Source of the DNA: Verrucomicrobiales bacterium
Lineage (GTDB): Bacteria; Verrucomicrobiota; Verrucomicrobiia; Verrucomicrobiales; DEV007
Assembly: GCA_002698785.1 (NCBI GenBank)
Contig: PAAG01000043.1
Location: 1 to 64,000, forward strand
DNA: 64,000 nucleotides
Direction: 5' to 3'
Shown one piece after another: positions 15,901 to 64,000 of this stretch. Position 1 is the stretch's first letter. Every line of letters begins with the position of its first letter. Made by a program: the position numbers and the translations under genes. The notes under the pieces were generated by a model, which saw nothing but the letters and a program-made list of their open reading frames with translations, had not been told where the DNA came from and ran no database searches.

Positions 15901-18900
15901 CCACACCACTCGGATCGGACCAGTTTCCAGCAAGGTCGCTTGCAATTGCAGTGAACAGATATTCACCATCGAGGAGATCATAGGAAGTCAAGTTCCAAGC
16001 TCCATCAGAGGCCCCTTCGGCAACTCTGGCGTAGTCAGCAAAAAGAGAGATATTGGCGATCTCCGCAGTTCCTGAGAACCCAGGTGAATTATCTTTGGTC
16101 AGATTGTCATCGCTCAGCACACCGGTATCCGACTCCAAAATTGGAGAAGAAGGAGTCGCTGGCGGAACGGTATCTACAGCAACAGAAATGGGCTCACTCG
16201 GTGCACTACCATCGGAGGTTGCTGTTATTTCGTGAGTCCCGTCTTCCAGAGATTCTGTTTCGATTGTCCAAAACCCAGTCCGGTCCGCTACAGCACTTCC
16301 AATATTTCCTGCCAATGACGAAATAAGATTCACCGTTCCCCGTGGGTGACACAATCCGGTGATTGTTGGCGTTGAGATTCTCGTAACGTTGTCCTGTCTA
16401 CTTTCTCCTGTATCACTGTCTTCTGTGACGTCCAGTTGATACGGTGCCACAGGGATTCCATTTGGAAAGCCAGGCGTGGGAGGCAAAAGTTCGAAGATGC
16501 CTGTTTCGAATACTTCCCCGTCTATATCCGGAAACCTTTGAAAAGAGTGCGCCTCCGGAACCCCATAACGGGACTCATTAATTTGAGGTTGCCCTTCACT
16601 TATTAGAGTTAGCAATCCTACATCGGTCGATTGACCTGACGTTCCGTAAACAATTGCGTCTACCAAGTTCTCCGTGGTTACCGCTGTACCCGGCGGATAC
16701 GAAGCCGCATCCCCTTTGTAAATGGCGACAGCTCCCACATCGACCTCAAAGGATTCATTCGGTATCACCATGTCGACATTGGGAACCCCCGCGTTGCCAA
16801 TCACGAAATACCCATTTTCACCTCTCGACTGCCCCCCCAAATCAATTGCCAGGTAACTGGCATCCGTCTCTCCGTCATAAAACACTACCGTATACCCATC
16901 CAACGGGGCATGGGCGGAGCAGTCCGATGCGATCTCCAAGAATTCAAGATCTGTATCCTCACTCGTTGTAGGGTCGAACTCATTAATCTTAGGTGGCGGA
17001 ACAAGCGAAAGACTTCGCAAGTCTCGCCCACCTTCAGGATTAGCCGTGGTGAAAAGAAGCGTGTAACCAATCGATACTATGTCATCAGGCCAAGAACTTT
17101 CTGGCCCTGTAGCCACATCTTCGAGAAGGTATGTTCCATCCTCGCTACCGTCAGAAACCCACAACTCCGCCCCATTCACCCCATCCTTGGCCTGGAAATA
17201 CAGTTTGCAGTTTCCTTCCGCAGCTCCATGAGGGAGATTGGAGTCGTCGCCTGGATAGATATCTTTCGTCAAAGTAGTTCCCTCTTCGGTACCATCCGAA
17301 ACCCACATCTCGAATCCGTTAACTTCATCGTACGCGACAAAAAACAATCTACCTCCAACCTCCACAAAATTTTGCGGCAATGAATGATAATTGCCCGGAT
17401 TGATATCCTTTAGCATATGTGTACCGACTTCTGTCCCATCAGAAACCCAAAGCTCAAATCCGTGCGCCCCATCGTAGCCTTGAAAAAACAAGAGGTCCCC
17501 GACTTGAATAATAGGTTCAGCTCCATTAGTAAATGTGAATGCTGCGTTGACTTCATCCAATGGCAAGGTCCCGCCAGTCGTTCCGTCCGAAATCCAATAT
17601 TCCAAGGAACTCCCATCGTTCGCCCTGAAGTATAGTCGCCCACCGGCCGAGACAAGATCTCTCGCGAAAGATGATACTGGTCCGGGTCGAATGTCTTTTA
17701 CGATCTGCGTACCAAGAGGGGTTCCGTCCGTGCACCAAAGCTCGCCTCCATGAAGGTCGTCTCGCGCAAAAAAAAGTGCCTTTCTCCCTACCTTTACGCT
17801 CTGCTCAAAACCACTGTAGTTATTTCCCGGTGTAAAATCTTTTAGCATCGTCGTTCCGGCCTCCGTGCCATCCGAAATCCAAGACTCTCTTCCATGAACA
17901 TTGTCGTGGGCGGAAAACAATAACTTCCCCTCTACCTCTACAAAATATTCAATGGGCGTCCCGCCCATTCCTGGCCGAATGTCTTTTACCAAAACTGTAC
18001 CGGTTTCCGTGCCGTCGGTTGCCCAGAGTTCGTGTCCATGAACGCCATCATTGGCCACAAAAAAGAGTTTTCCTCCTGCTTCAGTAAATGATGTGCCTTC
18101 ATAATACCGATATCCCGAGCTTCCAGGACCTGGATAAATGTCTTTGAGTATGTGAGTCCCCTCAACTGTACCGTCCGAAACCCACGGTTCATGCCCATGA
18201 ATACCGTCATCAACTTCGAAGAAGACTCTTCCCTCGAAAACCGTCATCCTCCCGTTCAGAAGAGCAGATTCGTCTGAAGGATAAATGTCTTTTACTACCT
18301 TGGTGCCCTCAGGAGTTCCATCTGTGACCCACAGTTCTCTGTCGGTGTAACCTGAGATCCCTGAAAAGAAAAGCTTTCCCCCAACCATGATAAATTCTTC
18401 CGGCCATGTAAGTGGGTAATAAGGCCCGATCTCCTCGACTGCATGGGTTCCTTCTTCCGTGCCGTCTGAAACCCATAGTTGTATATCAATTCCATCAAGT
18501 GCACCGAAATACAGCAACCCATTCAGCACCCCAAACCCCTGAGGATTCGAGGTTGCTACTCCCGGATTAATATCTTTAACCAGTTCGGTTCCGCCTTCCG
18601 TACCATCGGTCTTCCAGACTTCGACTCCAGACTCTCCATCATTTGCCCGAAAAAAGACTATGTTAGCCACTCTGAACAAATCTGTAGGTGATCCATGGGA
18701 ATTACCCGCAAATATGTCCTTCACCAGTTGTGTTCCACTTTCCGTGCCATCTGAAACCCACAACTCCGTGCCATGCATACTATCCGTCGCCCGAAAATAG
18801 AGCTTCCCACCCATTTCAGTGAGATAAGACGGTGAAGAATCCGTGCTCCCCTGATAGATATCTGTGACTAGCACCGTTCCCGTCGCCGTTCCGTCCGAGA

Positions 18901-20620
18901 CCCACAATTCGTAACCATGATCAGGATGGCGAGCCACTAGAAAGAGTTTTCCACCTGCCTCTGCAACCTCGGTGATCAACGAATATCCACCTCCCGTGTA
19001 GATATCCTTCACCATGGAGGTTCCCTCATCCGTACCATCAGTTACCCAAAGTTCCTTGCCATTTGTACCATCTCTTGCACTGAAGAAGAGTTTCCCGTCG
19101 AACTCGATAAGATGCTCAGGAAGAGATGAACTAGAGCCGGGAAAAATGTCTTTCACCAGATAAGTTCCCTCTGAAGTTCCATCGGTTGCCCACAATTCAC
19201 TCCCATTTGGGCTATCACGCCCGACAAAGTAGAGCAGTCCCCCTGCTTCCGTGAGATTCGTGAAACTCCTCAAAGCATTGGGAATAATGTCGAAGAACGG
19301 CTCAGTACCTTCAGAAGTGCCATCAGACACCCACAATTCCCCATCTTCGGTGAAGAAAAGTTTATCATCGAATACCGTAAGAGTAGTCACATCCGACGAT
19401 TCGAGAGTCACATCTTTCAACAGTCGCGTGCCGGCAACAGTACCGTCTGAACACCAAATCTCTCGACCGAACGTTTTCGTTGAGGCATAGAAAAATACTT
19501 TTCCCTGAAACTCAACGAGGTCAGACGGGGAAGATGAATGAGAACTCGCGCTAAAATGGGCCAGTTCTGAGCTTATTTGGGGATCCACAGTTAGCGGGTA
19601 CTCTCGACCTCCCACGGCAACCACGAGGTCGAAAACGACGCTGTCCTTCTGAGACTCGTCATCAAATCTCCGCTCCATCCAGGAAGGCACAGTTGCCCCT
19701 GTGGAATCAAACACTTCTAGCTTTCCGTAGCTCCAGACCTCTCGGCCTTGGGCATCAGAAAATACAAGAGAATTCTTCCTTGGTCCCCCTCCTCTGTTTT
19801 CTTCACGCAACCGAGCAACTGCACCCTCGGTCTCAATCTCAATCCCCAGCCTCAGCTCTCTTCCCGAACCAGCTCCCGGGAGTGGGGCTTCGATTGTCCA
19901 CCCCTGCTCGAGGCCGTTTTCCCCATTGATATACCATTCGTAGATTCCTCCGCCTCTGGAATACTCCACACGGGTTGGATCTTCCACCTCTTGGATCTTT
20001 GGACGCCCAACTGAGCCGCGACCACCACTTCCGTGCCCGATGGACGCTAATTTCACGTGGACATCAGGTGCTCCGTAAGCACTCTCGATTCTCACACCTT
20101 TGGATTCAAAATCCGCGAAACTAGCATACATACCCTGCGCGGGATTCGGAGCCACGGTGTTTCCGTCATCATCTGTCCGAATCGCGAAGTCTGCCTCGTC
20201 CCATTTTCGATTCTCACCCCCAAAACTCTCAAACCTAGCCAGCACTCCTTCGGGTAAAAGGGCGTCCACGCCTTGTCCTCCCTCTTCGCTGGCCATCAAT
20301 GCCTGGAGCTGGCCGAATGCCTTCTCCTTCTGCTCGTTTGTGACCACCGGGTCGGGCTCCTCTTCGGACGACGAAACAATCTTTGCTGGGGGGAGCTGCG
20401 ATCTTGTCAGCGTTTCTCCCGGTAGCATCTCAGCTTCCACCGCCTCAGAACGAACGGTTGTCTCTGAAATTTTTGAAACCTCTCCGCTCCAGCGCCCTGG
20501 CCGCAAAATTACTCCGAAAACCAGCACCACGGCAAGGAGACCGACTCCGGCTCGACCGGCTGGGGTTTTCAAAAAGTCCATTAACAAAGAAGGAAGGAGA
20601 GCACTGATCCACTCGATCAA
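12998..20620 (-). CDS. Giant exported ELWxxDGT-repeat / Ig-like protein
   Basis: 2540 residues. The N-terminus has a hydrophobic anchor (GVGLLAVVLVFGVIL, about residues 27-42). Residues about 350-1205 contain 17 good and one degenerate ELWxxDGT repeat (TIGR04534-type, about 47 residues each, e.g. ELWVSDGTEEGT...KDIYPG), predicted to form beta-propellers. Two lamin-tail-like domains (starting near 1210 and 1800, INEFDP...LEFLEI and INEVDV...LEFIEL), each followed by Ig-like domains with SDTG...TPTITG motifs, come next. A PPC-like domain (near 2280, HPGDSDRFAFTI) leads to a C-terminal basic beta domain (about 2375-2540) shared with the genes at 47424, 57965 and 60806. Probably surface-exposed adhesion or matrix protein. 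The gene appears more AT-rich than most neighbours. No sorting signal of a known type. Confidence 0.88.
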   Translation of the reverse strand: MIEWISALLPSLLMDFLKTPAGRAGVGLLAVVLVFGVILRPGRWSGEVSKISETTVRSEAVEAEMLPGETLTRSQLPPAKIVSSSEEEPDPVVTNEQKEKAFGQLQALMASEEGGQGVDALLPEGVLARFESFGGENRKWDEADFAIRTDDDGNTVAPNPAQGMYASFADFESKGVRIESAYGAPDVHVKLASIGHGSGGRGSVGRPKIQEVEDPTRVEYSRGGGIYEWYINGENGLEQGWTIEAPLPGAGSGRELRLGIEIETEGAVARLREENRGGGPRKNSLVFSDAQGREVWSYGKLEVFDSTGATVPSWMERRFDDESQKDSVVFDLVVAVGGREYPLTVDPQISSELAHFSASSHSSSPSDLVEFQGKVFFYASTKTFGREIWCSDGTVAGTRLLKDVTLESSDVTTLTVFDDKLFFTEDGELWVSDGTSEGTEPFFDIIPNALRSFTNLTEAGGLLYFVGRDSPNGSELWATDGTSEGTYLVKDIFPGSSSSLPEHLIEFDGKLFFSARDGTNGKELWVTDGTDEGTSMVKDIYTGGGYSLITEVAEAGGKLFLVARHPDHGYELWVSDGTATGTVLVTDIYQGSTDSSPSYLTEMGGKLYFRATDSMHGTELWVSDGTESGTQLVKDIFAGNSHGSPTDLFRVANIVFFRANDGESGVEVWKTDGTEGGTELVKDINPGVATSNPQGFGVLNGLLYFGALDGIDIQLWVSDGTEEGTHAVEEIGPYYPLTWPEEFIMVGGKLFFSGISGYTDRELWVTDGTPEGTKVVKDIYPSDESALLNGRMTVFEGRVFFEVDDGIHGHEPWVSDGTVEGTHILKDIYPGPGSSGYRYYEGTSFTEAGGKLFFVANDGVHGHELWATDGTETGTVLVKDIRPGMGGTPIEYFVEVEGKLLFSAHDNVHGRESWISDGTEAGTTMLKDFTPGNNYSGFEQSVKVGRKALFFARDDLHGGELWCTDGTPLGTQIVKDIRPGPVSSFARDLVSAGGRLYFRANDGSSLEYWISDGTTGGTLPLDEVNAAFTFTNGAEPIIQVGDLLFFQGYDGAHGFELWVSDGTEVGTHMLKDINPGNYHSLPQNFVEVGGRLFFVAYDEVNGFEMWVSDGTEEGTTLTKDIYPGDDSNLPHGAAEGNCKLYFQAKDGVNGAELWVSDGSEDGTYLLEDVATGPESSWPDDIVSIGYTLLFTTANPEGGRDLRSLSLVPPPKINEFDPTTSEDTDLEFLEIASDCSAHAPLDGYTVVFYDGETDASYLAIDLGGQSRGENGYFVIGNAGVPNVDMVIPNESFEVDVGAVAIYKGDAASYPPGTAVTTENLVDAIVYGTSGQSTDVGLLTLISEGQPQINESRYGVPEAHSFQRFPDIDGEVFETGIFELLPPTPGFPNGIPVAPYQLDVTEDSDTGESRQDNVTRISTPTITGLCHPRGTVNLISSLAGNIGSAVADRTGFWTIETESLEDGTHEITATSDGSAPSEPISVAVDTVPPATPSSPILESDTGVLSDDNLTKDNSPGFSGTAEIANISLFADYARVAEGASDGAWNLTSYDLLDGEYLFTAIASDLAGNWSDPSGVVAVTIDSTPPELTIEKSMGQGDPVSSGPILFSAVFSEEVFGFDETKVSIGGTGAGSYVVSGGPSEFLINVSAAASEGHISVSADAGAAMDLAGNMSLDPVLVGNSVTLDSIGSDGGSATALDVTSGAAVVDGWIDPADTDVFSFTLASTKIVEIKTTGEVDTRGVLTTYEGSVVNDPEADMSGKDDSNFFIVEVLPPGDYLIFVTSEGAANTGAYQLSVEVKDPTAFINEVDVFTQQSDSLEFIELYDAGQGNTSLDGHCLVLYDSDTNTSFYTVDLDGYSTDEDGYFLIGNSDVSGVGLIFPDRMLPDNGLGVALYEGDGADFLEGTPATVEGLLDAVFVENFTEGSPGLQSLLYSYSTELRLDEDSLLNGRGHSLQRFPNGRGGLRTNENFIPISPTPGEPNLIPSPPTGLDLSSDSDTGKSQTDDITSEATPLITGISRPGAQILLIESTDGSVGSGVAGIDGKWSIETALLTEGTKSITAAADGGEESSPLVFELDLTAPAAPTGLDLDAGSDSNIPDDNITSDITPTFSGTSVESHSVKLYANSFEVGSVQGDGVWMITSSGLTDGGYTVTASSCDAAGNESTASSPVNLVVDTTPPTVTISRALGQIDPAVSGPVSFAASFSEVVSGFDSRDVVTSGPFVGGVSILGGSASYIISVESSGEGGFVAISIPGAAAIDTAGNASSASVSIDSRIDLDIHSDTIPGATPLVFSNGTGQVTGYLHPGDSDRFAFTIASPVVIRVHSTGMVGGSGELYKTGDSAFQVIEGTSDNGDFELNATLVPGDYTLLLTSSDSDGSYVIDFEETGVPEIQPDLLVNGVGDGIYDTLQGQTISLVSKKARPVHATFTLTNDSEIQDSYTLRATPGNRLFQTVYLNRDDGNIAAGLVAGTHQVVDMIPGDSGYRIAARITPSKKRLRKKKIIRRGTRKIKKYKYLKKQFSSRITATSSLMDTKRDLNGIQLRTK

Positions 20621-47423: not shown

Positions 47424-48971
47424 ATGGCCAGCGCACACCGATTCCTGCCTTTACTTCTCGCGGCCTTGTCTTCAGCTGCCATCTTATATTCCCAAAAGGC
47501 CTCAGCCCAGCACCCTGGCCGAATCCACACCCTCTACGGGAGCGACACACAGGGATTCTCTGGAGATGGCGGCCCGGCTGCAGATGCATTATTTAGTTCT
47601 ATACGCTCCATCACAATGAACGCTGACGGAGATCTTTTTCTGCTCGACAGATTCAATTATCGGATCAGAAAAATTGATGCTGCGACAAAGATTGTCACAA
47701 CCATAGCGGGAAACGGAGCCAACGCCTCAACAGGCGACGGCGGCCTTGCTACCGAGGCATCAATCCAAGCCAGCAGTTCCATAGCCTGTGATTCCGCCGG
47801 AAACATCTATTTCACAGAAACAACCAATCACATCATCCGCCGAATCCTCGTTTCAACCGGAATCATAGAAACGTTCGCCGGCACTGGTTCATCAGGATTT
47901 AGCGGCGACAACGGCGACCGCCTGTCGGCACAATTCAACGAACCGACGTACATTGCATTCGACTCGGACGACAACCTGTATGTGACTGATTTCAGAAACG
48001 ATCGTATCCGCCGAATCGCCGAGAGCACTGGTATCTGCACGACTATCGCAGGTGGATCGGAAAGCACCACATTTCTCGGAGACGGCGGATTAGCGATCGA
48101 CTCCCGTTTTAACTCACCCGACCACCTCCATATTGACACGAGTGACAATATTTTCTTTTCTACATTGAATAGGGTAGTGAAGATCGATGCCGCAACATCG
48201 CTGATTCACACGATCGTCGGCACAGGGGAAATCTCATTCAACGGAAACGGGCTACGCGGGGCAGCAACAAATATTCGCCCTTCCGGGATCGCAACCGGGC
48301 CAGACGGCGCTATTTTCATTAGCGATTACAACCGACTACGAAGATACGACCCAACAGCAGATCGGGTATTCATCTACGCGGGAACTATGGCTCCGGGAAA
48401 TTTCAGAGAAGGAGCCGTCGGAACCTCCACGGCACTGGATTCCGTCCTACGAAAAGTACTTGTGATGCCACGCGGGGAGATACTTTTCTCACACAGTTCG
48501 ACTATCAAATCCATCACATCGAATGGCCCAGCTCCGACACATCGAGCGAATTGCGCAGTCGGGAGAAACTCCGTCAGATTAATTGGATTCAATAAAGTTA
48601 ACCGCACCGGAAGGAAACAAACATACGAATCCTACATAAAAAGGAAGAAGAATACGCGGTATTGCTACTTCGCACTGCGAAACGACTCACATGCTAACAA
48701 TGCCATACTAGCACGCTACAAACTAAAGAACAGGAGATTCAAATTGGTTGTTCGCGACGACTTTTTTCAATCCAGCAACAGCCCTGTTTCTCGACGAGGT
48801 AATTCGAACGTCTTCGATATCGACCCAGGAGCAAAAAAGATTTTTTATATGCTGGTAAAGCCAAAGTTTAAAAAAAGGAAGAGGGAAAAAACAGCCATTC
48901 TTACATTCCGCGCAACCTCCCTCCTAAACAGCAGAGCTTCCGACACAGCCAAAGCAGTTTTCTATTACTAG
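47424..48971 (+). CDS. Secreted NHL-repeat propeller with C-terminal basic domain
   Basis: 515 residues. Signal peptide (FLPLLLAALSSAAILYSQ). Residues about 30-355 contain five to six NHL-type repeats (GPAADALFSSIRSITMNADGDLFLLDRFNYRIRKID, with the pattern NRIRKI-T-IAGNG repeated), forming a beta-propeller. The C-terminal 150 residues (about 365-515) belong to the same basic beta domain as the proteins at 12998, 57965 and 60806: they share the TGxGQ/RKQ turn, the alternating Lys and the RATSLLNSRASDTAKA ending. Likely surface-exposed. Flanked by the lipoprotein at 46398 (divergent) and the terminase-like pair. Confidence 0.8.
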   Translation: MASAHRFLPLLLAALSSAAILYSQKASAQHPGRIHTLYGSDTQGFSGDGGPAADALFSSIRSITMNADGDLFLLDRFNYRIRKIDAATKIVTTIAGNGANASTGDGGLATEASIQASSSIACDSAGNIYFTETTNHIIRRILVSTGIIETFAGTGSSGFSGDNGDRLSAQFNEPTYIAFDSDDNLYVTDFRNDRIRRIAESTGICTTIAGGSESTTFLGDGGLAIDSRFNSPDHLHIDTSDNIFFSTLNRVVKIDAATSLIHTIVGTGEISFNGNGLRGAATNIRPSGIATGPDGAIFISDYNRLRRYDPTADRVFIYAGTMAPGNFREGAVGTSTALDSVLRKVLVMPRGEILFSHSSTIKSITSNGPAPTHRANCAVGRNSVRLIGFNKVNRTGRKQTYESYIKRKKNTRYCYFALRNDSHANNAILARYKLKNRRFKLVVRDDFFQSSNSPVSRRGNSNVFDIDPGAKKIFYMLVKPKFKKRKREKTAILTFRATSLLNSRASDTAKAVFYY

Positions 48972-49773: not shown

Positions 49774-49805
49774 ACTGATTACTGATCACAGATTACCGAT
49801 CACAG
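49774..49805. repeat. Third heptamer family, actgatt
   Basis: actgatt-actgatc-acagatt-accgatc-acag: four and a half 7-base units, ending 22 bp before the start of the terminase-like gene. Confidence 0.7.
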
Positions 49806-49827
49806 CGCCGCAGGCGCTTCCCTCCCC

Positions 49828-51327
49828 ATGAAATCCCAACTCACCCGCCTCCAAACCCTCTACCATTGCCGCGAAGAAGGCACTGGCAAACCCATCCCCT
49901 TCGTTCCCCGCCCCGAGCAGGAAACCATCTTCCAACACCTCATCGATCGCCCTAACGAACCCGCCTACATCATCAAATCCCGGCGCCTCGGACTCTCCAC
50001 CGGCATCAACCTCTTCCAGGTCGACAGCGCCTGCTGGCACCGTGGCTGGACCGGAATGCTCATTGACCGCACCCAGGAAGACGCCTCCCGAAAAATGGCC
50101 GACCAGATCCGCTTCGGATTCGAAAACATGGATCCCGAAGTCCGCACCCAATACCAGATCGTCCGCCAGTCCGACCGTGAGCTGCGCCTCCGCCTCGCCG
50201 ACGAGAACAAACCCGAAGCCTCCACCATCTACGCCGGAGTCTCCGCCCGTGGGGGCGACTTCTCCCTGCTCCACGTTTCCGAGATGGGCCCCATCGCCGC
50301 ACGCGACGACGCCCGCGCCAAAGAAATTGTCAACGGTGCCTTCCCCGCCGCCAGCCGAGGCAGCACCGTCGTGGAAACCACCTGGATGGGAGGCAAAACC
50401 GGACGCCTCTGGGACCTCATTGACCCCATCCTCCACAAAGATCCCAACGCCCCCGGCACCATCTACTTCTTCCCCTGGCACGCCGACCCCGAAGCCATCG
50501 AAATGCAAGGCATGGTCACCGCCGAGATCGAAGACTACTTCCGGAAATTGGAGGATCGGTTAGGCAAACGATTCGATCCCGAGCAGAAAAAATGGTATGC
50601 CGCCAAGCGCGTCCGCCATCGCCACGAAGTCGTTCGCGAATACCCCTCCACCCTCGAAGAAGCCCTCTCTTCCCCCGTCGAGGGCGCCATCTACGCCTCC
50701 TACCTCGACCAGGCCATGACCGATGGGCGCATCACCGACTTCCCCATTGATCGCTCCGCCCTCGTCCATACCGCGTGGGACCTCGGCTCCCCCTTCAACA
50801 CCGTCACCTGGTATTTCCAGATCATCGGGCGCGAGATACTCATCATCGACGTCGACCTCGAGCTCAACATCACCCTTACCGATCGCGTCTCCCGCATCCT
50901 CTCGAAGGGGTATCCGTTAGGCACCCATCTTCTCCCTCACGATGCCACCGCCACTGCGACCAGCGGAAAAAGCGTCCAGCAGGATCTTCAGGAAGCCGGC
51001 CTTTCCAACACCCGCGTCGTCCCCCGCACCCAGAACGTCTGGATCGGGATCAACGCCACCGAAGAAGCCTTTCCCCGCATGCGCTTCCACGCCACCAACT
51101 GCGCCACCGGAATCGACCGATTGCAGAACTACCGCGTCACCAACGAATCCCGCACTGGCCTCGCCGTCGAGACACCCGTCCACGACCGCAACTCCCACGC
51201 CGCCGACGCCCTCCGCATCATGATGGAAGGCATGGAATCCGGCCTCGCCGGAAAATCCCACCACACCGGCACCCGCCGCTCCGTCCGTAAAGCCCGCGTC
51301 ATGCGTGGGTATGGGGGTGTGCGGTGA
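49828..51327 (+). CDS. Terminase large-subunit-like ATPase/nuclease
   Basis: 499 residues with the two-domain layout of phage terminase large subunits. The ATPase domain has a Walker-A-like KSRRLGLST (residues 50-58, a deviant P-loop of the kind found in T4-type terminases) and a Walker-B-like LLHVSEMGPI with E152. The RNase-H-like nuclease domain has Asp residues in HTAWDLG (D318), LPHDATAT (D372) and a final HAADALRIMMEG. Phage terminases cut and package DNA into heads. No portal, head, protease or tail gene is found nearby, so this is an isolated gene: either a decayed prophage or a domesticated copy. Intact, about normal length for the family. Confidence 0.8.
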   Translation: MKSQLTRLQTLYHCREEGTGKPIPFVPRPEQETIFQHLIDRPNEPAYIIKSRRLGLSTGINLFQVDSACWHRGWTGMLIDRTQEDASRKMADQIRFGFENMDPEVRTQYQIVRQSDRELRLRLADENKPEASTIYAGVSARGGDFSLLHVSEMGPIAARDDARAKEIVNGAFPAASRGSTVVETTWMGGKTGRLWDLIDPILHKDPNAPGTIYFFPWHADPEAIEMQGMVTAEIEDYFRKLEDRLGKRFDPEQKKWYAAKRVRHRHEVVREYPSTLEEALSSPVEGAIYASYLDQAMTDGRITDFPIDRSALVHTAWDLGSPFNTVTWYFQIIGREILIIDVDLELNITLTDRVSRILSKGYPLGTHLLPHDATATATSGKSVQQDLQEAGLSNTRVVPRTQNVWIGINATEEAFPRMRFHATNCATGIDRLQNYRVTNESRTGLAVETPVHDRNSHAADALRIMMEGMESGLAGKSHHTGTRRSVRKARVMRGYGGVR

Positions 51328-54636: not shown

Positions 54637-56130
54637 ATGAAATCCATCCTAGCCCGCCTCGGAACGGCTTCTTGTCTTCTGCTCTCATTCACCATCGCGC
54701 CCGTAAACGCTCACGACCTCGTCTCCGCGGATGACGACGAAGCGCAGGGTACTGAAAATGCATTCAAACCCACTGTATCAGGCAGTGGGCGCTACGTGGT
54801 GTTTCATACCGAGGCTAGCCTGTTGCCTGAGGACGACAATCTCTTCCGCGATGTTTACTGGAGAGACCGCGAGACCCGAGAACTCCGACTAATTTCCCAG
54901 AATGCGGAGGGAGAGGCCGGGAATGGGGACTCTAACGACGCAGTGATTTCTGCGAACGGCGCATTTGTTGCATTCCAGTCCACTGCCAGAAACTTCGTCG
55001 ACGACGATCCAGGTGCCCTGATTGACATTTTCGTCTGCGAGATTGCGACCGGGGAAATCACGATGATTTCCCGATCGCCATCTGGCGAGAGAGGCAACGG
55101 GAGTTCCACCGACCCCTCGATCTCGTACGATGGCTCGATGGTGGCGTTTCAATCCGCAGCAACCAACTTATCCCCACTGGACACTATGCCTGATTCCGAT
55201 ATCTACGCCAGGAGCCGCACCGATGATAGCTCGATTGTACTGGTCTCGCGCAACGCCTCGGACGCCCCTGGTAATAGCGCCGAAATTCAGGCCGTCATAT
55301 CGGGAGATGGAGAGTATGTGGCATTCACCTCATTTTCTGACAATCTGCTCGCCGACGATCCTGACACCGATAGAGATGTCTACCTCTTCCGCCTCGACAC
55401 CGGAACTCTGGAGCTGGTCTCTTACGACAGCACGAATACCGTCTCAGGCAACGGACTGAGCCAGAATCCCTCTCTCAACGAATCAGGAAGGGTTGTAGTC
55501 TTTTACTCCACAGGGACGAACCTTTCGGGAGACGACAACGACGCGTTAAACGACGTGTTCATTCGCTACATGGATGCGATGGCGCCAGAAAACATCCTGG
55601 TATCGGTGAATAACGAGAAAGAAAAATCAAACCTTACTTCCGTTAGCGGTCCCCTCTCATTATCCTCCGACGGGCAGTTTGTGGCATTTCGCTCGCAGGG
55701 AACGAACATGGGGGCCAGCAACGCAAATGCTGGTTTCTCAGCCTATCACATTTACTTGCGGGATGTGGCTGTTGAGAAAACCATCTTGATGAACGATGTC
55801 ACCGGAGGTGCAGATGATAGCTCGGATGATGTCACCATCTCAGCTGACGGGGAAACCGTCGTCTACGAATCAGACGCGACCAACCTCGTGAACTTCGACT
55901 ACAACGGATCGACCACCGACGTCTTCGCTTCACCGGGTCGGGACTTCACCTTCGACCGCGAGGCTCGAGCCGCCGCCATCCAGAAAGCGATACTGCGCGC
56001 GAAGCTCACCAAGAAACTCCGGAAATTTAAGAAGAAGCTCCGCAAAGTCCGCCGTGCGAAAAAAGCGGCCCGCGTCAAAGCCTTCAAAAAGAAGATCAGG
56101 AAAGTGAAGAAGCAGCTGCGGTCCTTGTAA
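54637..56130 (+). CDS. Secreted PD40/TolB-like propeller with basic tail
   Basis: 497 residues. Signal peptide (LARLGTASCLLLSFTIAPVNA). Residues about 35-440 carry repeats of PD40/WD40-like type (VSGSGRYVVFHTEASLLPEDDN...VYWRDRETRELRLIS, VISANGAFVAFQSTARNFVDDD...), i.e. a TolB-like beta-propeller. The C-terminal 45 residues are a very basic two-helix tail (KLTKKLRKFKKKLRKVRRAKKAARVKAFKKKIRKVKKQLRSL-type pattern, only K, R, L, V, F, A, S). Its paralogue at 56319 has the same architecture. Probably cell-surface or matrix associated. Confidence 0.82.
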   Translation: MKSILARLGTASCLLLSFTIAPVNAHDLVSADDDEAQGTENAFKPTVSGSGRYVVFHTEASLLPEDDNLFRDVYWRDRETRELRLISQNAEGEAGNGDSNDAVISANGAFVAFQSTARNFVDDDPGALIDIFVCEIATGEITMISRSPSGERGNGSSTDPSISYDGSMVAFQSAATNLSPLDTMPDSDIYARSRTDDSSIVLVSRNASDAPGNSAEIQAVISGDGEYVAFTSFSDNLLADDPDTDRDVYLFRLDTGTLELVSYDSTNTVSGNGLSQNPSLNESGRVVVFYSTGTNLSGDDNDALNDVFIRYMDAMAPENILVSVNNEKEKSNLTSVSGPLSLSSDGQFVAFRSQGTNMGASNANAGFSAYHIYLRDVAVEKTILMNDVTGGADDSSDDVTISADGETVVYESDATNLVNFDYNGSTTDVFASPGRDFTFDREARAAAIQKAILRAKLTKKLRKFKKKLRKVRRAKKAARVKAFKKKIRKVKKQLRSL

Positions 56131-56225
56131 ATGGATCAGGCTCGATAAAGCCATAATTTTCATAGAACCCTTGCGTTCTCTTCTATGGTAATTATAATAG
56201 AGCGTCTTCCGCCTTCGTTTCGGTA

Positions 56226-56267
56226 GCCGGGTGACAGTCACGATGTGCCCCTGTCACACCCGGCTTT
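56226..56267 (+). terminator. Terminator-like hairpin after the first propeller gene
   Basis: gccgggtgacag...ctgtcacacccggc forms a GC-rich stem with a short bulge, followed by ttt. It lies 95 bp after the stop at 56130 and would end that transcript. A weaker stem, catagaa...ttctatg at 56161-56187, precedes it. Confidence 0.55.
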
Positions 56268-56318
56268 CTCGTAGCAAAAGCAAGAAAGAAAACAACAACA
56301 CCGACCACACAACACCTC

Positions 56319-57785
56319 ATGATCCCCTCCCCTTCCTTCGCCAGGAATGGCCTCCTGGCAGCCACGCTATTGCTTAGTTTCGGCCTGTCACAGGCAGCCG
56401 ACCGAATCTCTCAAGATGCCAACGGAACGGCTGGCAATGGCCCCTCAGCCGCCAACGACGTCACGCCAGACGGAAAATTCGCCGTTTTTACCAGTGATGC
56501 TTCCAATCTCGTCGGTCTCGATGATGACAATGGATTATCCGACGTCTTCGTCTACGAGCGCGCCACCGGAGAACTCACGCTGGTCGCCACCAACGACGTC
56601 GGAGAGCAAACAGCAGCAGCCTCAAGCTCCGGCTCGATTTCCAACGACGGCCTCGTCGTTGCCTTCCAAGCGATCGCCACCGACCTCGTTAGCGGCGAAG
56701 ACGACGATGGCTTTGTCGATATCTATGTGAAGAACCTCGAAGACAACTCCATCGAGTTGGCCTCCCTCGCGGACGACCCCATGAATGAGCCGAATGCCGA
56801 CTGTCTCCTCCTCGGTCTTTCTGGGAATGGAAAATTCGTCCTCTTCGCTTCGGTAGCCGACAACCTTGTCGACGATGACGACAATATGATGCTCGACCTT
56901 TTCGTCCGCGATCTCGATGGCGAAACGACCACTCGCGTTTCGGTGGCCGACGGTGGCGCCGAACTTACCGGCACTGGTCCTAGCTGGGGATCAATCTCTG
57001 ACGACGGGACACTCGTCGTCTTCGCGACGGACAGCGCCAATGTCGTCACGGATGACTTCAATACTTTCTCAGACGTATTTCTGCACTCCGTAGGCTCCGT
57101 TCCAGCGAGCACAGTGCGCATTTCCATGGACTTTAATGACGAAGAGACCAATGGGGATTCCAACAACCCGGTCATCGCCGGGAATGGTCTCTATGTCGCA
57201 TTTGACTCCGACGCATCCGATCTCGTCGATGGAGATGCGAATGATGCTCGCGACGTCTTTATCTACGACATTTTCAACGACCAGACACAGATCGTATCGC
57301 TCACCACGAATCGGAGCCAGGTTGACCAACCGAGTTCCTTTCCCACCATCTCCGGCAATGGTCGCTTCGTGGGTTTCACATCGGCGTCCCCAGACTTTGA
57401 TAACCGTTACTCCGGATCGGGTTTAGAAGGTTTCTACAAAGACCTTCAGACGAACAGCGTCGAGCTTGCGAACATCACCAAAAACAACCAGCAGGGAAAT
57501 GGAGCCGCCAGCATTCCTCTCGTATCCTCGAATGGTGCCCTTGTTTTCACCAGCAACTCCACCAATCTCGTCAACGGCGGCGGTGGAAGTGAAACGCACG
57601 CCTTTTACACCAAGCCCAAGACACCAAAGATCGTCGTAAACCAGGCACTCAAGGCTGCCTTCAAAAAGAAGATCAAAAAGGCGAAATTCGCCCTCCGCAA
57701 AGCCAAGCGGGCCGGTAAGAAAGCACGAGTGAAAAAGCTCAAGCGCAAGATCCGGACCCTTCGCAAGAGGATGAAAAAAATCTGA
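56319..57785 (+). CDS. Secreted PD40/TolB-like propeller with basic tail, paralogue 2
   Basis: 488 residues. Signal peptide (GLLAATLLLSFGLSQAA). Residues about 30-440 carry the same PD40-like repeats as the gene at 54637 (e.g. VTPDGKFAVFTSDASNLVGLDDDNGLSDVFVYER, then SGNGKFVLFASVADNLVDDDDN). Last 45 residues are the basic tail (KKKIKKAKFALRKAKRAGKKARVKKLKRKIRTLRKRMKKI-type). The pair arose by duplication (inference). No sorting signal of known kind; the tail could anchor the protein to anionic surface polymers. Confidence 0.82.
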   Translation: MIPSPSFARNGLLAATLLLSFGLSQAADRISQDANGTAGNGPSAANDVTPDGKFAVFTSDASNLVGLDDDNGLSDVFVYERATGELTLVATNDVGEQTAAASSSGSISNDGLVVAFQAIATDLVSGEDDDGFVDIYVKNLEDNSIELASLADDPMNEPNADCLLLGLSGNGKFVLFASVADNLVDDDDNMMLDLFVRDLDGETTTRVSVADGGAELTGTGPSWGSISDDGTLVVFATDSANVVTDDFNTFSDVFLHSVGSVPASTVRISMDFNDEETNGDSNNPVIAGNGLYVAFDSDASDLVDGDANDARDVFIYDIFNDQTQIVSLTTNRSQVDQPSSFPTISGNGRFVGFTSASPDFDNRYSGSGLEGFYKDLQTNSVELANITKNNQQGNGAASIPLVSSNGALVFTSNSTNLVNGGGGSETHAFYTKPKTPKIVVNQALKAAFKKKIKKAKFALRKAKRAGKKARVKKLKRKIRTLRKRMKKI

Positions 57786-57964: not shown

Positions 57965-60664
57965 ATGAAACTCTCCATCCCCTGCTTCGTTTTTACGGCT
58001 CTTCTCGCCGGGCTTTTCTCCATCGCCTCCGCCGCTCCCGGCGAACTCGTCGTGGGGATCAAGATCGCCGACAACACCAACGGACTCGGCGACCTGAACG
58101 ACGTCGATAATTTCGGCAGCTCGATCACCGATATCGGCGACCTTGACGGGGACGGAATTCCCGACCTCGCGGTAGGTGCCGCCAGCGACTCGACGAACGG
58201 ACTGTCCAAAGGAGCGGTTTACATCCTTTTCCTCAACTCCAACGGCACCGTCAAGAGCCAGACAAAAATCGCTGACAACACCGGTGGATTCGGCACTCTT
58301 TCCAATGGGGACCAGTTCGGCACTTCCTGCGCGGCACCAGGAGACATCGATGGCGATGGCGTCCAGGATCTTATCGTCGGAGCTTCGACTGATGATACCG
58401 GGGGAGCAAATCGCGGTGCCGCCTACGTGCTGTTCCTCAATACTAACGGAACTGTCAAAGCCCAGACCAAGCTGGCCCACAACACCGGGGGATTCGGACC
58501 TCTCAACGATAACGACTTCTTCGGCGCATCCTGCACCTCCCTCGGCGACCTGAACAACGACGACATCTCCGAAGTCGTCATCGGCGCCAAGGGAGACGAT
58601 ACCGGTGGCGCCGCGAGAGGTGCCGCCTACGTCCTTTTCCTGACGAACAGCGGAACCGTGATCGGCACCACCAAGCTCGCAAACGCTTCGGAGGGGGCCC
58701 CCACTTTTGCCGATCTCGACAACTTTGGATCGTCCTGTGCACCGCTGGAAGATTTGAATGGTGACGGAATTCCCGAGGTGATCATCGGTGCCGAGGGAGA
58801 CAGCACTGGTGGCATTGCCAGGGGTGCGGTTTACATCCTCTTTCTGAATCTCGATGGCTCCGTGCAAAGTTCGGTAAAAATCGCAAACGGGGTAAATGGA
58901 TTCGGAACCCTTTCTGACCTCGATCTTTTCGGCTCGTCCTGCACCAGCATGGGCGACATCGACGGCGATGGCATTCCAGACATTGCGGTGGGTTCCAAGT
59001 TCGACAGCACCACAGGGCAGAGCCGAGGTGCGCTCCATATCATTTTCCTCAATCAGGATGGAACCGTGAAATCCAGCGTCGAGATCGACGACACCAGTCC
59101 TGCCCTGGCACTCAACAACGACGACTTTTTCGGTTCAGCCGTTATCCGCCTCGACGACGGTGGCGAAAGCGGCCTTCCTTTCGTCATGGTCGGCGTGCCG
59201 GGTGAAAACACGAACGGCTCCAATCGCGGTGCAATTTTTCTGCTCGCGTTAGGAGATCTCCCCATCACGGTGACAACGACCGTAGACGAACTCGATGCCA
59301 CCTCTGCCGACGGCACTGGCGTATCCCTCCGCGAAGCGATCCGCGACGCCAAGGCCACGGGTGAATTCCGCACCATCCTTTTCGATTCATCACTGAATGG
59401 CGAGACCATCCGCCTCAGCGGCAGCGGCCTGGTGTTGGACGATATGGAGGTGCATATTTCCGGTGTGGGCCTGCCTGATGGAATTACGATCTCGGGTGAG
59501 AACACATTTCGCCCCTTCCTCGTAGACAATGTATCGAGCGTCACATTCGAATGTCTCACGATCGCGAACGGACGGAGGGAAAACAATCCCGGAGGAGGTC
59601 TCGCAATAAATTCCAGCGTCGCGAAGGCCATCATCAAAGACACCGCATTTCTGAATTGTACCGTGGATGCAGAGTCCGGCGGCGCTATCGCCAACGCCGG
59701 CACACTCATCGTGGAGCGTTGCACTTTCCTGAACAACACTGCCGAAGCAGGTGGAGCGATCATCCATGAAGGACCGACCGCAAAGATGAGGATCACGAAC
59801 TCGAGCTTTTTCAACAACACCGCGATTTCAGGCGTCGGGGGTGCCATCTTCAATGCCACCACGACACAGACCGATATCAACTTCACCACCTTCTCCGGGA
59901 ACCTGGCAGCATCAGACGGCTCCGCCCTCTTTGTCGAAAACAGCATCGTGATTCTGCAGAACTGCCTCCTCACCGATGACAACATCATCGAAAGAGATGG
60001 AATGGCTGTCGTCGTGGAATTCAACGTCCTGACCGTGCCCGACGAAGATCTCGCACCGCTCGGAGACTTCGGAGGAAAAACCCTGACACGACCACTCCTC
60101 CCGACTTCTACCGCGAAAAATGCAGGGACCTTTTCTCCCCTTCCCGCCTTCGACCAGAACGGTCTCGCTCGCAATCGCAACGGAGGCACCGATCCCGGAG
60201 CCGCCGAAGCCATCGAATCTGCCGACGTCCAGCCCGACAACCTCATCGGCCAGAAACTCGGCAAGCAGAAAGGCAACAACATCTTCAACACCAACGGCGC
60301 TGGCCAGAGGATTAACGTAAAGCTCAAGGGAAAGAAGAAGGCCAAGTCCGTCTTCACCGTCCAGAACGACGGCATCATCCCCGACAACATTTCCGTGCGC
60401 AGCAACAAGCCTAACCGACGCACACTAAAGTTCAAAGCCTTCCAGCTCACCGGCGGGCGGGCGAATGTGACCGGCTCACTCATCCGTGGTCGCCTCACCC
60501 TTTCCAATCTCGACCCCGGCTCGACCGTCCTGTTTCGCACCACCTTTCAGCGCAAAACGCTCGACAAGAAAGCCCGCGGCAAACTGCGTTTCACTTCCAC
60601 TTCCTCCCTCTTCGGCGTCCGCGACACCGTGCAAGCACGGGTGAAGTCGTTGCGGGACAAGTAA
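57965..60664 (+). CDS. Secreted FG-GAP propeller / beta-helix / basic beta-domain protein
   Basis: 899 residues. Signal peptide (FVFTALLAGLFSIASAA). About 28-420: six FG-GAP repeats with DxDxDG calcium loops (DNFGSS...DLDGDGIPDLAVG and so on), an integrin-like propeller. About 425-740: a CSLREA-type start (DATSADGTGVSLREAIRDA) and right-handed beta-helix with a choice-of-anchor Q-like end (APLGDFGGKTLTRPLLPTSTAKNAG, then DQNGLARNRNGGTDPGAAEA). From about 754 (QPDNLIGQKLGKQKGNNIFNTNGAGQ) to the end is the basic beta domain shared with the genes at 12998, 47424 and 60806, ending KKARGKLRFTSTSSLF. Close paralogue of the gene at 60806. Confidence 0.87.
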   Translation: MKLSIPCFVFTALLAGLFSIASAAPGELVVGIKIADNTNGLGDLNDVDNFGSSITDIGDLDGDGIPDLAVGAASDSTNGLSKGAVYILFLNSNGTVKSQTKIADNTGGFGTLSNGDQFGTSCAAPGDIDGDGVQDLIVGASTDDTGGANRGAAYVLFLNTNGTVKAQTKLAHNTGGFGPLNDNDFFGASCTSLGDLNNDDISEVVIGAKGDDTGGAARGAAYVLFLTNSGTVIGTTKLANASEGAPTFADLDNFGSSCAPLEDLNGDGIPEVIIGAEGDSTGGIARGAVYILFLNLDGSVQSSVKIANGVNGFGTLSDLDLFGSSCTSMGDIDGDGIPDIAVGSKFDSTTGQSRGALHIIFLNQDGTVKSSVEIDDTSPALALNNDDFFGSAVIRLDDGGESGLPFVMVGVPGENTNGSNRGAIFLLALGDLPITVTTTVDELDATSADGTGVSLREAIRDAKATGEFRTILFDSSLNGETIRLSGSGLVLDDMEVHISGVGLPDGITISGENTFRPFLVDNVSSVTFECLTIANGRRENNPGGGLAINSSVAKAIIKDTAFLNCTVDAESGGAIANAGTLIVERCTFLNNTAEAGGAIIHEGPTAKMRITNSSFFNNTAISGVGGAIFNATTTQTDINFTTFSGNLAASDGSALFVENSIVILQNCLLTDDNIIERDGMAVVVEFNVLTVPDEDLAPLGDFGGKTLTRPLLPTSTAKNAGTFSPLPAFDQNGLARNRNGGTDPGAAEAIESADVQPDNLIGQKLGKQKGNNIFNTNGAGQRINVKLKGKKKAKSVFTVQNDGIIPDNISVRSNKPNRRTLKFKAFQLTGGRANVTGSLIRGRLTLSNLDPGSTVLFRTTFQRKTLDKKARGKLRFTSTSSLFGVRDTVQARVKSLRDK

Positions 60665-60805: not shown

Positions 60806-63523
60806 ATGTTCATTCGTCGCTTTACCGCTCTTACTACCGGTCTGCTGGCCGCCCACTTTTGCTGGCTTCTCTCTCCCACAATCACCGCCGCGCCGGGCGA
60901 TGTGGATTCCTTCGTGAAAATCGCCGATGGCGTAGGCGGTTTCACCGGCGGCCCACTCCCCGTCAATAATGCGTTTGGGAGATCGACTACCAATATCGGA
61001 GATCTCAACGGCGACGGAATTCCCGAGCTCGCCGTTGGCGCCTTCAACGACACCAGCGGTGGCGCTCTGTATATCCTCTTCCTCAAAGCGGATGGGACTG
61101 TGAAATCTCAGACCAAGATCGCCAGCGACACCTCAGGTCTCGGCACACTCGCGAACGGAGATTCTTTCGGCATGTCCTCCGCTGCACTTGGCGATTTCAA
61201 TGGAGATGGCATTCCCGATATCGCAGTCGGTGCACCGGGCGACGACACAGGGGGCAGCGGACGTGGCGCTATCTACATTCTCTCTTTGAACACAAACGGA
61301 ACGGTAAAATCCCAGGAAAAAATCGCCGACAATACCGGCGGATTCGGCACACTCGTAGACGGGGATAGCTTCGGAAACTCCTGTGCTTCTCTGGGCGATC
61401 TCGACGGGGACGGCATTTCCGATCTCGCCATCGGAGCCAATGTGGAAGACACAGGCGGTAGCGGAAGAGGTGCTGTCTTCATTGCCTTTCTCAACGCCGA
61501 CGGAACCGTCAAATCCCAGACCAAGCTCGCACACAATACGAACGGACTTGGCTCGCTCGCAGACGGAGACAACTTCGGATTTTCCTGTGCAAACCTCGGC
61601 GATCTGAATGGTGACGGAATTCCCGAACTCGGTGTCGGCGCCCACCAGGATGCCACCGGAGGAACGAGAAGAGGTGCCCTCTACGTGCTCTTCCTCGATA
61701 CTGACGGAACTGTCGAGTCTCAGACCAAGATCGCGGACAATACAAGCGGCTTCGGCACCCTTGTGGATTTCGACGTTTTCGGATCTTCCTGTACCTCACT
61801 AGGCGATCTCGACGGAGACGGAATCCCTGAAGTCGGCGTCGGGGCATTGGACGACGGTACGGGAGGTCTCGGGAGAGGAGCGCTTTACGTACTCTTTCTC
61901 AACACAGATGGGAAGGTCCGAGCCCAGAACAAAATCGCGAGTGATCCCGTCGATTTCGATGCACTCGCAGACTACGATAGCTTCGGCTCCTCCTGTGCTG
62001 CCCTCGGCGATCTCGACGGAGACTGCATTCCCGAAATCGCCGTCGGTGCTACCAGAATCGACACCCCAGTGAATAATAATCAAGGCGGCCTCTTCATCCT
62101 TTCCATCGGCGATCCCCCTATCACAGTCACCACGCTGGAGGACGAAGACGACGCTACCTCCACCGATGGCACCGGTATCTCCCTGCGCGAAGCCGTCAGC
62201 GACGCCGAGGACGCCGGCGAATTCCGCACCATTAATTTCGATCCCTCTCTCAACGGGAAAACGATTGTTCTCGGCGGAATGGAGATCCCGATCATCGACC
62301 AGGATGTCAAGGTCACCGGAAAAGGTCTTTCCAAGGGCATCGCTATTTCCGGAAACAATCAGTCCCGCATATTCCACATCCAAGGCACTTCCCAGGCGAC
62401 GCTGGAATGTCTGGAGATATTGGATGGTTACGACGATTCCTTCAGCGGCGGCGGGGTGATCGTTACCAATAGCAATACCCGAGCCGTCATCGATCAATGC
62501 TACATTCACGACTGCAGTACCGACGCAGGCGGGGGTGGCGCCGTTGTTTGTAACACGAAACTTTTCGTAAGAAACTCCACCTTTCAGAACAACGCCGGTC
62601 CCCTCGGAGGTGCCCTTCTCTCAGCGGGAATTGCTTCGGATCTCACCGTAGAAAATTCCACATTCGTCGGAAATATGTCGATCACCATGGGCGCCGCCGA
62701 CGGTGCAGCGATCGCCAATATTTCGGACGCCACGAGCACGGTGAAACGCTCCACCTTCATCAGCAACACCGCAGAGAAAGCTAGCTCCTACACCGTCTAT
62801 TCCGCCAGCGGCCCCATCCACGTGGAGAACTGTGCCTTTGCCGACAGCGAGACCAGCGTGGGCGTCGAGTCCTCAGGCTCCTTTACCGAGTCTGACAACT
62901 TCGACCTCGCTCTCTCCGACTTCGCCGACCTCGGATACTACGGCGAAAAAACCCTGACACAGCCACTTCTACCGGATTCGACCGCGAAGAACATGGCCGC
63001 CTACACTCCCCTCCCCATTACCGACCAGAATGGGTTTTCTCGCATCCGCAATGGCGGTCCAGACCCCGGTGCAGCCGAGGCCATCGAAACAACCGACTAC
63101 CAGCCCGATAACCTCATCGGCGAAAAGAGAGGAAAGCAAAAAGGCAACAACATCTACAACACCACAGGCGCGGGACAGAAGGTGAAGGTAAAACTCCAGG
63201 GCCGGAAGAAATTCAAGACCTTCATGACCGTTCAGAACGACGGCGAAGTCCCGGACACCATCACCCTGCGCAGCAACAAGCCTAACAAGCGCACCCTGAA
63301 ACTGAAGGTTCGCCAGATTGGCGGCGGTAACGTCACTGCAGTCCTTCGCACCGGGCTCACCCTTCCCACTCTCGCCCCCGGCCAGTCCGTCTCTTTCAAA
63401 GCCGACTACAAGCGCAAGTCGAAGACCAAGAAAGCACGCGGCAAACTCCGTTTCACTTCGACTTCGTCGCTTTTCGGAAAAGCCGACACCGCCATGGCGA
63501 AGATCAAGTCGCTGCGGGATTGA
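60806..63523 (+). CDS. Secreted FG-GAP propeller / beta-helix / basic beta-domain protein, paralogue 2
   Basis: 905 residues. Signal peptide (FTALTTGLLAAHFCWLLSPTITA). Same order as the gene at 57965: six FG-GAP repeats (28-425, e.g. DSFGNSCASLGDLDGDGISDLAIGA), a CSLREA-type start (DATSTDGTGISLREAVSDA) and beta-helix to a choice-of-anchor Q-like end (LGYYGEKTLTQPLLPDSTAKNM, DQNGFSRIRNGGPDPGAAEAIE), then the basic beta domain from about 763 (QPDNLIGEKRGKQKGNNIYNTTGAGQKV...FTSTSSLFGKADTAMAKIKSL). It is a recent duplicate, with overall similarity high enough to align by eye. Likely binds something on the cell surface. Confidence 0.87.
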   Translation: MFIRRFTALTTGLLAAHFCWLLSPTITAAPGDVDSFVKIADGVGGFTGGPLPVNNAFGRSTTNIGDLNGDGIPELAVGAFNDTSGGALYILFLKADGTVKSQTKIASDTSGLGTLANGDSFGMSSAALGDFNGDGIPDIAVGAPGDDTGGSGRGAIYILSLNTNGTVKSQEKIADNTGGFGTLVDGDSFGNSCASLGDLDGDGISDLAIGANVEDTGGSGRGAVFIAFLNADGTVKSQTKLAHNTNGLGSLADGDNFGFSCANLGDLNGDGIPELGVGAHQDATGGTRRGALYVLFLDTDGTVESQTKIADNTSGFGTLVDFDVFGSSCTSLGDLDGDGIPEVGVGALDDGTGGLGRGALYVLFLNTDGKVRAQNKIASDPVDFDALADYDSFGSSCAALGDLDGDCIPEIAVGATRIDTPVNNNQGGLFILSIGDPPITVTTLEDEDDATSTDGTGISLREAVSDAEDAGEFRTINFDPSLNGKTIVLGGMEIPIIDQDVKVTGKGLSKGIAISGNNQSRIFHIQGTSQATLECLEILDGYDDSFSGGGVIVTNSNTRAVIDQCYIHDCSTDAGGGGAVVCNTKLFVRNSTFQNNAGPLGGALLSAGIASDLTVENSTFVGNMSITMGAADGAAIANISDATSTVKRSTFISNTAEKASSYTVYSASGPIHVENCAFADSETSVGVESSGSFTESDNFDLALSDFADLGYYGEKTLTQPLLPDSTAKNMAAYTPLPITDQNGFSRIRNGGPDPGAAEAIETTDYQPDNLIGEKRGKQKGNNIYNTTGAGQKVKVKLQGRKKFKTFMTVQNDGEVPDTITLRSNKPNKRTLKLKVRQIGGGNVTAVLRTGLTLPTLAPGQSVSFKADYKRKSKTKKARGKLRFTSTSSLFGKADTAMAKIKSLRD

Positions 63524-63537
63524 CGTAACCGTTCCCT

Positions 63538-64000
63538 CTACAGAGCTCGAAGCGCGGCCTGGAATCGCTTGAGCTTTCTTCTCGCCTTCTTGATGCCGCG
63601 GCGGTCGCCTTTTCGCTTGGCGATGCGGATTTTTCTTTTTTCCGCCCTGATCTTTGCCCGCAACGTCGCAATCCTTCTCGAAACGTCTACCCCTTCCACC
63701 GATCCAATGTCGGGGTTCGGCCCGTCGAACCGGGTCAACTCCCGCTGATCGAATGCGAGGCCGAAGCTGTCGTCGATACCGCCATCCACGGCCGGGCTTC
63801 CAAAAATAGGAATGTGTGTCAGGGTCGGCCCTCCATTGTCCCGCAATGGTGAGAGCATTGGATTGTTGAATCCGACAATATTCCCCTTCACGCCATTGGT
63901 ATAGCCACCGCCGACACCGATGAGGTTGTTACCACCACTATCGATGGCTATGCTGGCGATGTCACCCGGAACGCCGTCAACGATGTTCCCCGAGAGAATG
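63538..64000 (-). CDS. Partial beta-helix protein with choice-of-anchor Q domain and basic tail
   Basis: 5' end lies beyond the window; 154 codons visible. The visible part begins inside beta-helix turns (GNIVDGVPGDIASIAIDSGGNNLIGVGGG). It passes through a choice-of-anchor Q-type motif (LSPLRDNGGPTLTHIPIFGSPAVDGG...FDGPNPDIGSVEG) and ends in the basic two-helix tail (TLRAKIRAEKRKIRIAKRKGDRRGIKKARRKLKRFQAALRAL pattern). It therefore joins the same anchor-type domain as the proteins at 57965 and 60806 to a different C-terminal module. Convergent with the gene ending at 63523. Confidence 0.8.
   Translation of the reverse strand, partial: ILSGNIVDGVPGDIASIAIDSGGNNLIGVGGGYTNGVKGNIVGFNNPMLSPLRDNGGPTLTHIPIFGSPAVDGGIDDSFGLAFDQRELTRFDGPNPDIGSVEGVDVSRRIATLRAKIRAEKRKIRIAKRKGDRRGIKKARRKLKRFQAALRAL

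Follow-up and report, generated by a model that had tools for sequence, protein, structure and literature searches.

A basic two-helix domain at the C-terminus of exported proteins in a genus of Verrucomicrobiales

Four proteins encoded in a 64,000-nucleotide stretch of DNA from a Verrucomicrobiales bacterium (contig PAAG01000043.1 of assembly GCA_002698785.1; the whole stretch is referred to here as the window) end in a shared basic tail of two predicted helices. A preliminary description of the window had pointed out this tail, and all four copies were found where it had placed them. The observation is confirmed: the basic tail is a real domain family. The four tails stop 0–1 residue short of the stop codon, in keeping with the two residues at most that had been described, and have a net charge of +19 to +25 over the last 45 residues. 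From the sequence pattern we hypothesise that the tail is an exchangeable C-terminal retention module, which would hold exported proteins by charge on anionic polymers of the surface or matrix; this has, in our view, an even chance of being right. The interpretation put forward in the preliminary description, of a tail that binds anionic polymers, DNA or lipids, or acts as a sorting or anchoring signal, is as a whole partly supported.

Order and composition of the tail

The genome from which the window comes (G000) comprises 7.0 Mb in 60 contigs, the window being positions 1–64000 of contig 46. A model was built from 23 tails of G000 and applied to 53 tails from other genomes, which had been gathered with wider models, so that the comparison is a test of order over composition and not an independent discovery. 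All 53 scored between 17.2 and 66.7 bits (median 39.6), while 1060 composition-preserving shuffles reached at most 9.1 bits. Reversed tails, in which the helical period is kept, had a median of 11.2 bits and a maximum of 23.1. Since every tail lies above every shuffle, it is the order of the residues, not their composition, that carries the score.

The DNA points the same way. Between paralogous G000 tails, 483 of 1726 fourfold sites are the same (0.28, where chance gives about 0.30), and lysine codons agree in 0.54, which is also the chance value. The synonymous sites are thus saturated and the protein pattern is kept, which implies that the DNA has drifted while selection holds the pattern.

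In 180 kb of G000 not chosen for tails, a net charge of at least +15 over the last 45 residues is reached by none of 127 called open reading frames (ORFs). In a wider set of 323 ORFs, from DNA partly chosen for tails, the last 45 residues carry +10 or more in 19 of the 109 ORFs classed as exported and in 9 of the 145 soluble ones classed as non-exported, and by eye seven of those nine end in the hairpin or in the all-beta domain described below. The gene caller used for the 323 ORFs was a simple script, with some wrong starts or strands (for example 349–1263 and 49789–50508) and crude signal-peptide rules.

Sequence pattern and predicted structure

The tail module consists of a helix, a short turn and a second helix, together about 46 residues, close to the 45 or so first described. 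Its length is fixed: internal gaps occur in 2 of the 75 tails that were aligned, these being matches near a seen stop in frames of at least 120 residues. Hydrophobic columns are spaced 4-3-4-3 in helix 1 and 3-4-3-4-3 in helix 2, and each is 87–100% hydrophobic. The outer columns are mostly lysine or arginine in varying mixture, with a few that prefer serine, glutamine or alanine, and aspartate plus glutamate make up at most 4% of a column, save for three with 7, 9 and 14%, of which the 14% column lies in the turn. Because lysine and arginine interchange and acidic residues are rare, what is conserved on the outside appears to be charge and not one particular residue. The net charge of the last 52 residues has a median of +19, with a range of +10 to +28.

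The median helical hydrophobic moments of the two helices are 1.43 and 1.54, about twice those of shuffled tails (0.70 and 0.69). AlphaFold2 models of the four window tails have two helices, at residues 2–28 and 31–50, with a mean predicted local distance difference test score (pLDDT) of 93. The tail is therefore predicted to be an antiparallel helical hairpin with a heptad core of leucine, isoleucine, valine and alanine at the a and d positions. Among sequence matches in the PDB, designed helical hairpins rank best (7tbo, E 3.7e-5), and a Foldseek search with the hairpin gave no match at E ≤0.001.

Distribution among genomes

Searching G000 with one tail found 17 places, and an alignment of 18 tails found 28 places up to E 1. 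These are mostly exported proteins of differing kinds, whose frames stop where the match ends or close to it, together with a few short orphan frames or weak matches. The model used for the genus and the phylum was made from 39 of 46 collected tails, omitting the seven most divergent. At E ≤0.001 it gave 82 matches, spread over 9 of the 33 genus genomes: 24 in G000, 20 in G001, 16 in G005, 9 in G025, 8 in G015, 2 in G012, and one each in G008, G028 and G010. Five genomes thus have 8 to 24 matches each.

That the tail should always sit at the extreme C-terminus was borne out when all 82 frames were read: the match ends 0–5 residues from the stop in 75 and at most 10 residues from it in 78. Of the four exceptions, three lie inside their proteins, two of these being from G001 and one from G010, and the fourth is a G000 tail 18 residues from its stop. 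As the G010 match is internal, C-terminal copies are present in 8 of the 33 genus genomes, and the count for G001 falls to 18.

The preliminary description had also proposed a search of Verrucomicrobiota and Planctomycetota; in the one phylum to which the search was confined, no wider spread was found. The phylum sample held 387 genomes including G000, and the 386 others gave only three single matches, two internal (G053, G046) and one C-terminal hairpin of near-neutral charge (G360), in a search whose first-look candidates were partly scored (17 of 31 in G000), so that absence is slightly weaker than the tally. Two further matches near the one in G360 are internal.

A few tails stand in frames of 49–110 residues that have no normal exported body (G000 C9:38317-38445 and C46:97077-97223, G005 C66:15145, G012 C15:1937), and are perhaps gene remnants. 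The first of these lies directly behind what appears by eye to be a response-regulator gene.

Carrier proteins and their export

Within the window, the gene at 54637–56130 (+) encodes an exported propeller-like protein of 497 residues with a PD40 match (E 1.7e-7); its hairpin occupies 55975–56127 and ends at the stop. The gene at 56319–57785 (+), for an exported propeller-like protein of 488 residues, is related to it and has its hairpin at 57630–57782, with the two modelled helices given above. The products of these two genes are 29% identical and form one propeller-like family. On the opposite strand, 1771–2682 (−) encodes a protein of 303 residues, probably exported, which by eye has a long n-region before the hydrophobic WKWMAVSSAAVGVGAATSA; its hairpin lies at 1774–1926, and a single extra cysteine precedes the stop. 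The fourth gene, 63538–64000 (−), encodes a choice-of-anchor Q protein whose hairpin lies at 63541–63693. Its 5' part is beyond the window, and the complete frame (L033) has 461 codons from stop to stop and, by eye, a signal-peptide-like start. The four bodies had been called unrelated or distantly related; there are three kinds of body, two of the four proteins belonging to the same family.

The product of 1771–2682 is one of a group of tailed proteins, with L022, L023 and L032, in which, by eye, an unusually long n-region precedes the signal's hydrophobic part.

Across the genomes, tails are attached to PD40-type propellers, choice-of-anchor Q proteins, FG-GAP repeats and delta-60/DUF5122 propellers, and in several cases the domain preceding the hairpin is choice-of-anchor Q. 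Ten G000 tail proteins were scanned, the product of the complete 63538 gene being one of the ten; for three of the ten, neither Pfam nor NCBIfam gave a match at E 0.001.

Export of the tailed proteins is indicated by the sequence for most of them. Of 67 frames whose 5' end is complete, 52 pass a simple signal-peptide rule, and two of the 15 that fail show a signal at a later start; the remaining 13 fail. The bodies are net negative in 63 of 67 cases. Acidic bodies are usual in G000, where the median charge per 100 residues is −4.4 for exported and −3.9 for non-exported soluble ORFs, and the body charge of the tailed proteins is therefore not special.

A second basic C-terminal domain

Within the genus, some homologues of the 56319 body have the hairpin at their C-terminus and others an unrelated basic domain, which has about 142 residues and is mostly β in structure. 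The same all-beta domain ends the two genes that follow in the window: 57965–60664 (+), an exported protein with FG-GAP and choice-of-anchor Q domains (all-beta domain at 60230–60652), and its paralogue at 60806–63523 (+), with the domain at 63101–63514. By alignment it also ends 47424–48968 (+) and 13001–20620 (−). Twelve of these domains have a net charge of +7 to +34 (median +22). The AlphaFold prediction is poor (pLDDT 55.6), and the fold is for this reason described only as mostly β. Neither Pfam nor NCBIfam names the domain in the two window proteins scanned.

There are 61 matches to the all-beta domain in G000 and 334 across 15 of the 33 genus genomes, the C-terminal placement having been checked in the propeller homologues, the choice-of-anchor Q loci and the window genes. 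The 387-genome phylum sample gave no match outside G000 among candidates that were partly scored (10 of 95 in G000, at most 10 in some genomes). Hairpin and all-beta domain tend to occur together: the latter occurs in 7 of the 8 genomes with hairpins and in 8 of 25 others (Fisher p 0.012, uncorrected for relatedness).

A tree of 18 propeller bodies, 14 with the hairpin and 4 with the all-beta domain, has three changes of label, at least two of them forced by well supported branches. A single clade of all-beta proteins is rejected (approximately unbiased test, p 0.0005), and one such protein lies inside a well supported hairpin group, in a tree whose long branches make its details unsure. Similarly, 30 choice-of-anchor Q loci have 5 hairpin ends (one cut by a contig end), 10 all-beta ends, 2 of a third basic kind and 2 others, while in 11 the end lies outside the sequence examined. 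Exchange with a second basic module on related bodies favours a reading based on charge.

The third basic kind, unlike both the hairpin and the all-beta domain, is found in the choice-of-anchor Q proteins L151 and L178 (G000 contigs C49 and C6). One all-beta protein, L156 (G020 C13), has an extra tail rich in lysine, proline and alanine at its end.

Known sorting signals, exosortase and known families

The tail has the general character of a C-terminal homology domain: the same short domain ends many exported bodies, is present in many copies, and has a patchy distribution among genomes. It had been said to resemble no known C-terminal sorting signal, and this stands for those compared here. 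The motif feature of PEP-CTERM (PF07589) is absent, PEP occurring within the last 80 residues in 0 of 76 tails, and an LPxTG-like motif before a membrane helix also occurs in 0 of 76. The tail contains no membrane helix, the highest 15-residue hydropathy mean being 0.89; over the last 90 residues such a mean exceeds 1.6 in 1 of 76 proteins. No cysteine is conserved (cysteine occurs within the last 60 residues in 5 of 76), so that the tail lacks the invariant cysteine and the transmembrane helix that go with an arginine-rich end in MYXO-CTERM. A C-terminal model of the type IX secretion system (T9SS) is absent among the Pfam and NCBIfam matches listed for tails and window proteins, the T9SS machine itself not having been searched.

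The preliminary description had asked whether a specific processing gene accompanies the tail. None was found, exosortase being the only candidate profiled and no systematic search for partner genes having been made. Exosortase (PF09721) is present in 18 of the 33 genus genomes, and is commoner where there are tails (7 of 8 genomes) than elsewhere (11 of 25). It was, however, not found in G025, which is 93% complete and has nine tails, and this speaks against it as an obligatory partner. Exosortase thus seems neither needed nor sufficient for the tail. A mutual exclusion of PEP-CTERM and the tail was also considered and rejected: no PEP-CTERM match passes the cut-off in G000, G005 or G025, but tail and PEP-CTERM occur together in G001 and G015.

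It is worth adding that G000 has two exosortase (PF09721) matches, at C2:33492 and C3:201932, yet no PEP-CTERM match over the Pfam cut-off. The substrates of these exosortases may carry a tag that has not been modelled.

Nor was a described family found that fits the tail. Among the matches listed for 25 tails, the best E in Pfam was 0.00074 (DUF1771, with matches in four members) and the best in NCBIfam 0.0049 (one member); in the one tail with cut-offs given, no listed family reaches its cut-off. DUF1090 (YqjC, PF06476) matches 7 of the 25 tails weakly, with a best E of 0.0033 and 17.9 bits where the cut-off is 24.4, and Snf7 matches 12 of the 25, also weakly, with a best E of 0.0095 and, in one member, 12.6 bits where the cut-off is 27.3. 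In Foldseek, the template modelling score of the hairpin, by query, is 0.92 to CHMP3 and 0.81 to an entry for the low-density lipoprotein (LDL) receptor with RAP, neither being significant. Among the open-licence PubMed Central articles listed by literature searches, none describes such a tail in its title or the opening of its abstract.

Proposed function and alternatives

In the mechanism that we propose, an N-terminal signal peptide would export the protein, and the last 46 residues would fold as two helices with a short turn, having leucine, isoleucine, valine and alanine in the a/d core and mostly lysine and arginine outside. This polycationic hairpin would stay uncleaved on the protein outside the inner membrane, where it may bind anionic polymers by charge, such as lipopolysaccharide, an acidic exopolysaccharide or capsule, or extracellular DNA, and so retain the body on the cell surface or within the matrix. 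The all-beta basic module would do the same job on sister proteins, an exchange seen on one body family. The argument is that shape, place and charge are kept in the tail, and that the domain which takes its place on related bodies is again basic though differently folded; the simplest feature common to both is positive charge at the end of an exported, mostly acidic protein, which suggests retention on an anionic polymer of the surface or matrix.

Several observations weigh against this proposal. In the unselected G000 DNA, ends of +8 or more occur in 3 of 38 exported and 4 of 59 other ORFs, and as these shares are similar, a basic end is no general mark of export in this genome. Alanine before the turn is conserved at 92% and the final leucine at 91% of 58 rows, which together with the fixed length is more order than charge alone requires. 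The G015 tails are less basic than the rest, at +11 to +16 over the last 45 residues. In addition, G360 and its relative G256, from a distant family of the same phylum, share a similarly shaped hairpin at the C-terminus, whose charge is near-neutral to acidic. This hairpin (L242, L243) has the same length and the same DNSA start, and ends a long acidic repeat protein found once per genome; it is a look-alike that we leave unexplained. The excess of exosortase in tail genomes also counts here, and a C-terminal module that is multi-copy and limited to one lineage is moreover just what a sorting signal looks like.

The principal alternative is indeed that the tail is a sorting or secretion signal, recognised by an outer-membrane export or attachment machine dedicated to the genus, which may also recognise the all-beta domain and may cut the tail off. 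We regard this as possible, although somewhat unlikely. The C-terminal place, the many bodies and copies and the narrow lineage would all fit, as would the swap with a second C-terminal domain within one body family, the co-occurrence of the two domains and the greater frequency of exosortase in hairpin genomes. The tail nevertheless has no cleavage-like motif or membrane helix, its lysines and arginines interchange freely, and exosortase is not strictly tied to it. In a specific form of this alternative, one receptor or export machine, new to date, would read two unrelated, exchangeable cationic domains, which together mark up to about 85 exported proteins in a single genome (24 + 61 in G000); we consider this doubtful, and it would be the more striking result if true.

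The remaining explanations are less probable. Cationic hairpins could instead dock on the acidic bodies of neighbouring proteins, or on a partner hairpin that is acidic, and in this way assemble a layer or matrix of protein. The prevalence of negative bodies agrees with such an assembly module, and the heptad core might also pack into bundles, but like-charged hairpins repel each other and acidic bodies are nothing special in G000, which makes assembly improbable. It is very unlikely that the tail acts, once released, as an antimicrobial peptide or as one that binds DNA or RNA: in composition and helix-turn-helix shape it does resemble cationic peptides (cathelicidin-6, E 0.5, not significant), but it is preceded by none of the cleavage-type motifs sought and is attached to many different bodies. 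We can give hardly any credence to the view that the tails are lysine-rich, low-complexity ends with no common function. Low complexity eases weak matches, and this is the nature of three internal matches in the genus and of two in the phylum sample; against this stand the separation of all 53 tails from all the shuffles and the mere three foreign matches in the rest of the phylum sample.

If retention by charge is correct, a cationic hairpin that lacks a motif and is present on dozens of exported proteins would represent another way of keeping proteins at the surface, and would serve as an annotation marker for surface proteins in poorly known bacteria. The hairpin is a small, portable tag, and its binding is directly testable.

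Comparison with known systems

PEP-CTERM and MYXO-CTERM are outlined in PMC1569441 and PMC11980579 as short homology domains that end many exported proteins, with several to dozens per genome and a patchy distribution over lineages. Both combine a signature motif with a transmembrane helix and a basic cluster, whereas the tail has no membrane helix and none of the motifs looked for, and is a basic hairpin throughout. GlyGly-CTERM is of the same general kind as the tail, being a C-terminal tag on varied exported proteins. In type IX secretion, several types of C-terminal domain are found on various bodies, the tag being a β-domain. The Gram-negative C-terminal tags compared here thus rely either on a motif and a membrane helix or, in type IX secretion, on a β-domain.

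In shape, the tail resembles ESCRT-III proteins (Snf7, CHMP3) and RAP, which contain two-helix hairpins of a generic fold with no significant kinship to it. CHMP3 binds anionic membranes, and RAP the acidic modules of its receptors, by means of lysines. DUF1090 resembles the tail in sequence, by weak matches below the cut-off; its helices carry many acidic residues. Parallels to the proposed function are the GW modules of InlB, which bind lipoteichoic acid, and the lysine-rich end of mycobacterial HBHA, both of which retain proteins at the surface by charge. Like the role proposed for the tail, these are non-covalent, basic and C-terminal; the folds and the phyla differ, and the likeness drawn here is one of function.

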